Positions 1-2,243 of a stretch of 64,000 nucleotides of DNA are shown here, in pieces; the first letter of the stretch is position 1; the number at the start of each line of letters is the position of its first letter. A program made the position numbers and the translations under genes. Source of the stretch: Bacillus niameyensis. Its GTDB lineage: Bacteria; Bacillota; Bacilli; Bacillales; Bacillaceae_C. The notes beneath the pieces are model-generated. The model did not search any database and was not told the origin of the DNA. It saw only the letters and a list, made by a program, of their open reading frames with translations. The stretch lies in the NCBI RefSeq assembly GCF_001375535.1, contig NZ_LN831197.1, positions 2,534,805 through 2,598,804 on the forward strand, in the 5' to 3' direction.

Positions 1-2124
1 AGCCCTTCGTCTAAAAGCTGCAGTAAAGGATCCCCTAATGGATAACACCTTCGTATCAATATTATGACTGTTAAAGAAAGTACGAAGAGACATAGAAAAG
101 CTCCGCATTGCGTACTGTGTATCTACTAGATTTCGATTAATAAATTCTTTTTGTAATTCCTCATTATGAGCAATATCTCGTATTTCAAGCAAGTAATCCT
201 TTTTCTTGTTATTGATTTTCCTACTCTTATATAAGTTCAAAACTTCTACCTTAAACTGGTCAAACGAACGTGATGCTTGTCCAGTTGAAAAATATTGAAA
301 AGGTGTTTTTTGTCCCTTTTTCTGATTTTCTCTGTGATAACAAAGAACTTTATTTGCTTGGCTATCATCAAAGGATAGTGAAACAGGTAATATATGGTCA
401 ATTTCAAATTTTGAGGGATCCTGTACAATATCATTAATTGAGATACTTCTACCAGAATAAATGCATTTTCTATCCTGAGACACCCAAAGTTTTAATGCGA
501 GATGTTGTTTGCTATTAAGCCGAAGATCTTTTAATGATTTCACTCCTAAAAGTTTGGCCATTTCTTTTTCATGCTTACCGATCTCTCTTTGAAAATCGGA
601 ATATTGTTTTCTTTTTTCCTCACTATTTTTCTCTCGTGCTGTTTCTATTACAATGGCATCCATTTCGCCGTATCTTTTACGCACTTCATTGACTATTTTA
701 ATTGCCTCACGATGCGCCCTTTTTGCAACAGTGCTAAGAATAGCATCACCATCAAACATAACTTTTGTTTGAGTCTTCAAGTCAGAAAGGCGTTTTTCCT
801 CTAGTTTTCTTTCCGCAAACAATTCCATTTGATTTTTGTTTGTGTACCATAGATCCTCTAAAATTAGTTCAATTGCTTTTTTTGATAGGGCGTGGTAACC
901 CTTAAAGGAGGTACTTTCCTTAAAAGCATTAACTATTCTATCAATAGTTTCTTGATCATATTCCGAAAACAATGGCTTTAATTGCTCTTCTCGCCTGTAA
1001 TAAGATTTTTCTGCCGTTAATATTTCAATAATGTCGTCAATTAAATCTATGTCCTCTAGGATGGATGAAGGCAAATCATTTTTGTCTACGATCTTTTTAA
1101 GTTCTTTGAATCCTGTAAATTCCGTAAAAATTGGTTTGTCGGTTTTCAAATCAATACGATATCCACTCACATCTGAATCATCCGAAATACCTTTATACTT
1201 TAGAATTTGTGTAAGGGTAATATTTTTGCCCTTTTTGATAAAATGATCAATCAAGTAAAGTTTGTCTTCATAAGTGAGATATTCACCATTGATCAATAAT
1301 TTGTTTAAATCGCCACTTAAAAGATTATATAAGTCGGCTGTATATGACATTTTTGCAATGCGAAGATGGTCAGGAAAATATGTACATATTCCACGCATCT
1401 TGTTAATCATGGATGTATAGGCTAATTTCCCGTCTTTATCTAAATAATACTGCCCATAGGGGGTTGGTGACTTTTCAGATCCAGGACCATCGAAATATTC
1501 ACGTTTTGATTTTAAGATATTGATAAAATCCTCAATAAATTCATCCGTAATTTCCGAATATCTTTGTTGTTGTCTTATCAATATCGCACGTGCTTCTTTC
1601 ACATAGTCCTCTGTGCGAAACCTATTTTCATGATTTCTAATTTTTTCATGACCATTTGAAAGACGTTCCAATTGGACTTCACAGATATAACGGTTTTCTA
1701 GAAATTTCCTATTCCTTGATAATTGTTCTTTAGTCGATAGTTCATTGCCGCTCGATTTTTCATCTTCGGGTGAGTCAAGCGTTGTTCCTCTTCTTTTTAC
1801 TAAGTGGTATAACCCTGCAACTAATTCTTCTTTAGATACCTCTCCAAAAATAGCGTTATACCTAGCTTGGTATGGATCCATTTTCCCAATTGATTCAGAA
1901 GGTAATCCATTGTACTCGAAAAGACTTTTTGCTCTTTCCAAACGGTGTGTCCTCCGCCTCTTCAATCTGCGCGAACTACGAAAACTTCGCCGATCCTCAT
2001 TAGCATTACGTGCAGCCTCTTCAAACAGTCTTACCCCAGCGTCAATGACATCTCCACTGTCTTGGTCAATGATCCCCCATCCGACGGAAGAAACACCAAT
2101 ATCAAGCCCCAACACCCTTCTCAA
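1..2124 (-). CDS. cas9: Cas9 endonuclease (compact, SaCas9-like), 3' part cut by window edge
   Basis: RNA-guided DNA endonuclease of a type II CRISPR-Cas system. I read 708 codons without a stop up to the left edge. The RuvC-I motif VLGLDIGVSSVGWGIID gives Asp8. The arginine-rich bridge helix RRSFRSSRRLKRRRTHRLER follows at about residues 45-64. RuvC-II is IVIETAREKN (Glu494). The HNH centre is FEIDHILPVS (Asp576, His577) with the third residue Asn600 in HRENQKKG. Blocks such as ELSTKEQLSRN, FRTEDYVKEA and FINRNLVDT match the layout of S. aureus Cas9, a protein of about 1050 residues, so roughly a third (RuvC-III and the PAM-interacting part) lies outside. The TTG at 2124 is preferred: AGGGGAG lies 10 bases upstream, whereas GTG 2133 is only one base from it. 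An in-frame TAG at 2142-2140 bounds the start. The catalytic residues visible are intact. Cas1, Cas2 and array are not seen and would have to lie to the left. Confidence 0.96.
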   Translation of the reverse strand, partial: MRRVLGLDIGVSSVGWGIIDQDSGDVIDAGVRLFEEAARNANEDRRSFRSSRRLKRRRTHRLERAKSLFEYNGLPSESIGKMDPYQARYNAIFGEVSKEELVAGLYHLVKRRGTTLDSPEDEKSSGNELSTKEQLSRNRKFLENRYICEVQLERLSNGHEKIRNHENRFRTEDYVKEARAILIRQQQRYSEITDEFIEDFINILKSKREYFDGPGSEKSPTPYGQYYLDKDGKLAYTSMINKMRGICTYFPDHLRIAKMSYTADLYNLLSGDLNKLLINGEYLTYEDKLYLIDHFIKKGKNITLTQILKYKGISDDSDVSGYRIDLKTDKPIFTEFTGFKELKKIVDKNDLPSSILEDIDLIDDIIEILTAEKSYYRREEQLKPLFSEYDQETIDRIVNAFKESTSFKGYHALSKKAIELILEDLWYTNKNQMELFAERKLEEKRLSDLKTQTKVMFDGDAILSTVAKRAHREAIKIVNEVRKRYGEMDAIVIETAREKNSEEKRKQYSDFQREIGKHEKEMAKLLGVKSLKDLRLNSKQHLALKLWVSQDRKCIYSGRSISINDIVQDPSKFEIDHILPVSLSFDDSQANKVLCYHRENQKKGQKTPFQYFSTGQASRSFDQFKVEVLNLYKSRKINNKKKDYLLEIRDIAHNEELQKEFINRNLVDTQYAMRSFSMSLRTFFNSHNIDTKVLSIRGSFTAAFRRRA

Positions 2125-2243
2125 TTTTTCCACACTCCCCTAAGAAATATCTCTTTAGGACTATAATACCAAATATCCTTTGATAGATATATCTGATTTT
2201 TCATTCAATCAATATTTCATCACCTTTTCTCCTACACCTTTTA

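Follow-up and report, generated by a model that had tools for sequence, protein, structure and literature searches.

The Bacillus niameyensis chromosome very probably carries a complete type II-A CRISPR-Cas locus, with presumed cutting, acquisition and expression, around a compact Cas9. The system is of a known kind, and its Cas9 is related to but distinct from SaCas9, the Staphylococcus aureus protein employed in gene therapy. The window, the whole 64,000-nucleotide stretch of DNA that was analysed (G000:C6:2534805-2598804, on a contig of 4.67 Mb; the genome's 6 contigs total 4.68 Mb), holds the 5' two thirds of cas9. The remainder was read in an overlapping stretch, L003 (G000:C6:2522000-2541000; an L003 position minus 12805 gives the window position). 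Each feature of type II-A membership that can be tested from sequence was found: cas1, cas2, csn2, an array, and a tracrRNA with an anti-repeat.

The minus-strand frame over window positions 1-2124 contains 708 open codons from a TTG, or 711 from a GTG at 2133. The whole gene comprises 1061 codons from TTG (1064 from GTG) with no internal stop, its own stop being reached beyond the window edge. TTG is the likelier start because the in-register codons of five clade members are TTG (B. niameyensis), GTG, GTG, TTG and ATG. The features of the gene are as follows.

Window 1..2124, minus strand: 5' two thirds of cas9, TTG start at 2124-2122
L003 11744-14929, minus strand: whole cas9 gene, the part past the window edge read in L003
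Window 2135..2140, minus strand: candidate ribosome-binding site GGGGAG, 10 nt upstream of the TTG, predicted from the sequence
Window 2077..2115, minus strand: RuvC-I motif VLGLDIGVSSVGW, catalytic Asp8 at 2103-2101
Window 1951..1992, minus strand: arginine-rich bridge helix RRSFRSSRRLKRRR, residues 45-58 counted from TTG
Window 628..654, minus strand: RuvC-II motif IVIETAREK with Glu494
Window 298..465, minus strand: HNH domain, residues 554-609 from TTG (Pfam HNH_4), with Asp576, His577 and Asn600
Window 1..159, minus strand: start of RuvC_III (Pfam), the HHAID motif with His721 and Asp724 lying past the window edge in L003

The full protein matches the Cas9 profile TIGR01865 at E 1.1e-193 and six Pfam models above their cut-offs (HNH_4, RuvC_III, WED, REC, Cas9_RuvC and PI2), so its identity as a Cas9 is not a product of chance. 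RuvC-I, RuvC-II, RuvC-III and HNH are present with their catalytic residues, together with the bridge helix, REC, WED and PI. An earlier note had described an edge-truncated minus-strand gene of 708 open codons with a TTG start, and had placed Asp8, the bridge helix, Glu494, Asp576-His577 and Asn600. Counted from TTG, all of these placements are correct; the start gains support from the clade's in-register codons, and the frame goes on uninterrupted outside the window. The same note held that a stop or frameshift just beyond the edge, or a missing RuvC-III, would make the gene a remnant. No such interruption occurs in L003, and Pfam RuvC_III is recognised in the part beyond the edge.

Downstream of cas9, and entirely outside the window, the same strand carries in order the tracrRNA, cas1, cas2, csn2 and the array.

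L003 about 11724-11623, minus strand: tracrRNA region, between cas9 and cas1
L003 11724-11700, minus strand: hairpin with a GACG loop, outside the window, found at the same place in L004, L005, L057 and L058
L003 11586-10687, minus strand: cas1, 299 aa, TIGR03639 (type II model), E 5.8e-90
L003 10703-10374, minus strand: cas2, 109 aa, TIGR01573 (general Cas2 model), E 3.4e-23
L003 10377-9418, minus strand: csn2, 319 aa, PADLOC PDLC02145, E 1.3e-144
L003 9385 to about 8163, minus strand: CRISPR array, 19 repeats and 18 spacers

Against the PADLOC Csn2 models the csn2 product scores E 1.3e-144 and 1.6e-128; no Pfam or NCBIfam model matches it at E 0.001. Eighteen of the array repeats are identical 36-nt units and the terminal one is degenerate, while the 18 spacers measure 29-30 nt. 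An 89-aa frame past the array has no Pfam or NCBIfam family match and weak PADLOC matches (best 0.0012). Leftward extension, which the earlier note had proposed as a search for cas1-cas2, a tracrRNA and an array, thus recovered all of them and csn2 as well; the array and tracrRNA, whose absence from the genome would have marked cas9 as a remnant, stand behind it on the same strand.

A scan of genome contigs identified two Cas9 loci at 76% identity, in Bacillus massilionigeriensis (L004) and Bacillaceae bacterium UBA7792 (L005). With G012 (80%) and G095 (70%), they form a set of four relatives of the same clade at 70-80% identity, in all of which cas9 is open. These loci share the same hairpins and, as far as the stretches reach, the order cas9-tracrRNA-cas1-cas2-csn2-array. 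They differ in their spacers and in csn2 (L003 9418-10377), which is only 41-52% identical among the four close relatives versus 76-89% for cas1 and cas2. In the B. massilionigeriensis array (L004 13080-15186), a block duplication repeats spacers 15-19 as 20-24, with a slight change in the last. A Cas9 tree of 19 rows (of 22, with L012, L013 and L255 left out, and with St1Cas9, the CRISPR1 Cas9 of Streptococcus thermophilus, absent) unites the own clade of five at 100/100 and joins it with two rows at 61-62% identity into one side, also at 100/100. Four SaCas9-type orthologs, 38-39% identical to the B. niameyensis protein, form a separate clade at 100/100, and the own Cas9 falls outside it. 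One of these rows, L244, matches SaCas9 chains with 1894 bits, and the other three are labelled SaCas9-type by the tree. Structure 8ywh is named SaCas9 in the PDB match listing; 5axw and its like we take to be SaCas9. Among the matches listed from a literature largely without subscription articles, there was no paper on this Cas9 clade.

The gap between cas9 and cas1 contains an anti-repeat, a nexus-like hairpin at GGGTTTATCCCGAACTC and a terminator. When the repeats of four loci are compared, the predicted repeat:anti-repeat duplex has 30 pairs: 18 are invariant, four change on both sides and remain paired, five change on one side and remain paired, and at three the pairing is lost in one locus or more. 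The repeat of the array and the anti-repeat some 2 kb distant change together, and this covariation is good evidence that the two pair. Directly 5' of the anti-repeat, the inner seven pairs of the GACG-loop hairpin are kept in all five loci, unlike the outermost three. This hairpin is probably the 5' end of the tracrRNA precursor, the RNA presumably starting near it. A predicted sigma-70-like promoter, TTTACA-17-TATCCT, overlaps the 3' end of cas9; its -35 is the same in all five loci, the spacing to a -10-like hexamer being 17 in four loci and 18 in one. The tracrRNA stretch holds two promoter-like sites, versus 0.3 expected from shuffles. In the array leader, TATAAT lies 9 nt upstream of the first repeat, and TGAG forms the leader's end in all five loci; type II-A leaders generally end in ATTTGAG. 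Rfam gave six matches to L003, all below the gathering score. Two hairpins follow the duplex, a scaffold feature of the SaCas9 subfamily, and SaCas9-like scaffolds carry two hairpins according to the available text of one report (PMC7606464).

The search for targets rests on ungapped scans of 232 spacers, taken from eight stretches that cover seven loci: 18 own, 30 from B. massilionigeriensis, 76 from G095, 11 from G012 and 97 from three relatives at 41-44% identity. Those of B. massilionigeriensis (five of them in the duplicated block) and G095 come from the fetched part of the array, and those of G012 lie on two contigs. They were compared with the G334 contig (also an IMG/VR entry), 90 viral loci (1.22 Mb), 14 viral loci and 60 prophage stretches (1.16 Mb) from genomes of the family; the 135 spacers of the 70-80% clade were also scanned against 81 more viral loci. 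Against the 90 viral loci there were 12 matches with at most five mismatches, overlapping loci of one phage being counted separately, whereas three shuffles gave none and reversed and complemented spacers one each.

Credible phage targets were obtained for three of the 18 own spacers, with best mismatch counts of 2, 4 and 5. Spacer 17 matches a tail-protein-like gene (sites ATGTACCT in G334, 2 mismatches, and ATGTTCCA in L174, 3). Spacer 16 matches a terminase-like gene (TAGTCATT in L074, 4 mismatches; TAGTAATT in L075, 5; TGGTCATT in L105, 6; TAGTAATC in G334, 7), the last two being kept because the same gene of related phages matches better. Spacer 1 matches a prophage holin gene (CAGTAATA in L216, 5 mismatches, the last ten bases perfect). 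The gene names follow Pfam, with holin above the cut-off and tail and terminase just under it. A search of the own array against 397 order genomes matched 35 at E 0.01, the own genome and carriers included; among the places listed, only spacer 17 in G334 was kept. Phage and plasmid records returned matches of E 1 or worse, none of which was counted, and no own spacer found a perfect match in the phage, plasmid, order-genome, viral and prophage sequences searched. Adjacent spacers matching one phage family were seen both here (16 and 17) and in G095 (66, 67 and 68, in the L058 array), which suggests repeated acquisition from one kind of invader.

Several further matches of own spacers were dropped, and among those listed their flanks vary and are not all NNGT. 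They comprise spacer 9 in L039 and L045 (4 mismatches; GTGAGGAA and GTAAAGTA; NNGA and NNAA) and in L187 (6; AAATTCTA; NNAT), spacer 6 in L044 (6; TCGAAAGC; NNGA), spacer 16 in the non-phage locus L018 (6; ATGGTAAG; NNGG) and in L275 (8), spacer 4 (8; GACGGACT), spacer 18 in L299 (8), and spacer 1 in L318 (7 mismatches at CTGTTGCT, 8 at AATCAGCA). Spacer 1 in L344 (6 mismatches; TAGTCCAG) was rejected because no holin gene is present there, the search pattern forced G at position 3, and the same 17-mer occurs in 27 viral stretches, most of which look chance-like.

Among the relatives, spacer 8 of G012 matches a primase-like gene, with NNGT at six of seven distinct sites. These are TGGTAAAA (L170, 1 mismatch), TAGTGAAG (L182, 3), TCGTAAAA (L189, 5) and, more distantly, TGGTGAAG (G334 and L163, 6) and TTGTAAAG (L161, 8); the matches in G334, L163 and L161 were kept because the same gene of related phages matches better. 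The exception is TGCAGAAT (L167, 5 mismatches). Spacer 2 of G012, on the second contig, speaks against NNGT with CAACAAAT (L326, 2 mismatches), which reads NNAC. The G095 sites read NNA(A/G): CGAAAACA for spacer 67 (1 mismatch), CAAGAATG for spacer 66 (1) and TGAAAGGC for spacer 68 (2), with more distant variants that include CGAATGCT, TAAATACG and AAGATAAG. The 30 B. massilionigeriensis spacers gave nothing worth keeping among the matches listed; this array and that of G095 had no match to phages at E 0.5 and 1, and the former, compared with 358 genomes, matched nothing beyond a lone repeat and the repeats of arrays already known.

All seven kept own sites carry NNGT. Since all sites of a given spacer fall in a single gene of related phages, they are not independent, and the sample is three. 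When flanks are drawn at random from such phage DNA, all three sites read NNGT with a frequency of 0.00016, and three sites agree in some adjacent pair within positions 1-8 with a frequency of 0.035; the latter is the fair figure because the motif was seen after the fact. NNGT may be the own PAM, as a lead and not a result, its chances standing a shade below even; they were lowered from even when one of the eight sites was discarded. The earlier view that neither guide scaffold nor PAM could be predicted from the visible part no longer holds for the scaffold, which is readable from DNA and covariation, and has been only partly overtaken for the PAM, where phage matches are few. Matching spacers to phages, which the note had suggested as a route to the PAM, did provide credible targets, and the PAM stays a guess. 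A literature mostly lacking subscription articles returned no paper on an 'NNGT PAM' with Cas9. The NNGTGA reported for Streptococcus pasteurianus Cas9, in the portions available of PMC6960281 and PMC7461778, resembles the NNGT lead at the level of the PAM.

The main competitor is a looser PAM, about NNRNA, common to the whole clade, with NNGT a chance product of small samples. It accommodates the G012 site CAACAAAT and the G095 sites CGAAAACA, CAAGAATG and TGAAAGGC, the PI ends within the clade are very similar, and chance alone makes 3.5% of site triplets agree in some adjacent pair. Against it, NNGT recurs at every kept own site and at six of the seven G012 spacer 8 sites, and this looser PAM is possible but on balance doubtful.

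The label given by the earlier note, a Cas9 of the S. aureus type, holds in three respects. B. niameyensis Cas9 resembles SaCas9 and its orthologs in size (about 1053-1061 aa), in domain order, and in a short scaffold with nexus-like and terminator hairpins; SaCas9 is its best full-length match among solved structures, with 658 bits, and St1Cas9 scores lower, with 534. The label needs qualifying in that the tree places the protein apart from the SaCas9-type clade and a number of PAM-reading positions carry other residues. In the available text of two reports, SaCas9 reads its PAM with N985, N986, R991, E993 and R1015 (PMC8811835, PMC9710800). The first four align to Ala, Met, Lys and Glu, hence three are changed and E993 is kept. 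The R1015 position falls on Arg1023 in the 19-row alignment, on a gap in four 11-row alignments and on Gly in another, a placement that is unsafe, and the SaCas9-type rows are themselves variable at all five positions. Residues 925-1030 score better against 8hud (5.4e-7) and St1Cas9 (3.4e-6) than against a SaCas9-type chain (0.09), and the 15 matches of the last 105 residues at E up to 10 include no SaCas9 chain. Taken as a whole, the C-terminal part of 285 aa slightly favours SaCas9 (5e-30 versus 4e-28 and 7e-28).

It is quite improbable that the protein is a narrow-sense SaCas9 ortholog reading an NNGRR(T)-like PAM: the structural match, the C-terminal part as a whole, the size and scaffold, the retained E993 and the one alignment with Arg at R1015 favour this, but the 38-39% identity, the separate clade, the replacement of N985, N986 and R991, the affinities of residues 925-1030, and the T that all seven kept own sites have at position 4 oppose it. 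As far as the available text goes, 16 orthologs with 53.4-91.6% identity to SaCas9 were tested in one study, and the PAMs of the 12 active ones were NNGRRT, NNGRRR, NNGRC, NNGA or NNGR (PMC8811835); the NNGT guess differs from these NNGR-type PAMs.

Taken together, the protein may belong to a separate compact II-A clade that joins a PI end of its own to a body like that of SaCas9, recognises T where a purine would otherwise stand at PAM position 4 (NNGT), and changes its PAM rapidly among members 70-80% identical; this composite is tentative and rather unlikely to hold in full. In such a clade, the tracrRNA would begin with the conserved 5' hairpin. Position 1023, ungapped within the clade, is Arg in B. 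niameyensis and G012 and Gln in G095, B. massilionigeriensis and UBA7792. It may carry a switch for PAM base 3, with Arg giving mostly NNG and Gln (G095) NNA, an idea seen after the fact that draws on three proteins only and is contradicted by one G012 site. If true, it predicts an NNA PAM for B. massilionigeriensis and UBA7792.

Whole-genome searches gave Cas9 matches in 2 of the 16 genus genomes, 4 of the 34 family genomes (two of these only 30-32% identical), 27 of 397 in the order sample (three at 70% or above, the own genome counted, and four at 41-44%) and 22 of 250 in the class sample (two full-length at 61-62% and one 520-codon frame at 62%). The system is patchy, because 14 of the 16 genus genomes lack a Cas9 match at E 0.001. 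The window also holds what are presumably spore-germination-like genes, which together with the two named relatives of the Cas9 point to a Bacillaceae host, the family given in the earlier note. In both carriers of the genus, cas9 lies near the same cluster, whose genes we take to be DUF3231 and gerAB, adjoining it in B. niameyensis and about 7 kb off in G012. Five further genomes of the genus have the DUF3231 gene and the next membrane gene (5/5) and the gerAB gene (3/5), and no cas gene match was found in the 14 kb taken at their DUF3231 cluster. A lone repeat-like element of this CRISPR type (L065 600-631; G316:C23) occurs in a genome without a Cas9 match in the order-sample search; it may be a remnant or a solitary repeat of the anti-CRISPR RNA kind. 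That the B. niameyensis locus is itself a decaying or silent remnant, its genes open and its acquisition and cutting lost, is very improbable, since the lack of perfect spacer matches in the sequences searched and the missing Cas9 in most genus genomes are outweighed by open cas9, cas1, cas2 and csn2, repeats identical save the terminal one, tracrRNA pairing preserved by compensatory changes, and a cas9 that stays open in four relatives at 70-80% identity.

Most likely, the locus would work as a normal type II-A immune system, its expression, cutting, acquisition and PAM being predicted from sequence. By analogy with the family, Cas1, Cas2 and Csn2 with Cas9 would insert 30-nt pieces of phage DNA at the leader end of the array. 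Transcription from the predicted promoter at the leader-repeat border would yield the pre-crRNA, and from the one overlapping the 3' end of cas9 the tracrRNA, whose anti-repeat would pair with the repeats. The crRNA and tracrRNA would then guide the 1061-aa Cas9, which, given its intact catalytic residues, may cut phage DNA beside a 3' PAM. Cas9s small enough for a single delivery vector and differing in PAM are in demand. B. niameyensis Cas9 has its whole locus, guide RNAs that can be read from covariation, and a PAM guess that can be tested. Its close relatives, with seemingly different PAMs and an Arg/Gln difference, could serve to map the PAM-reading residues of the clade.
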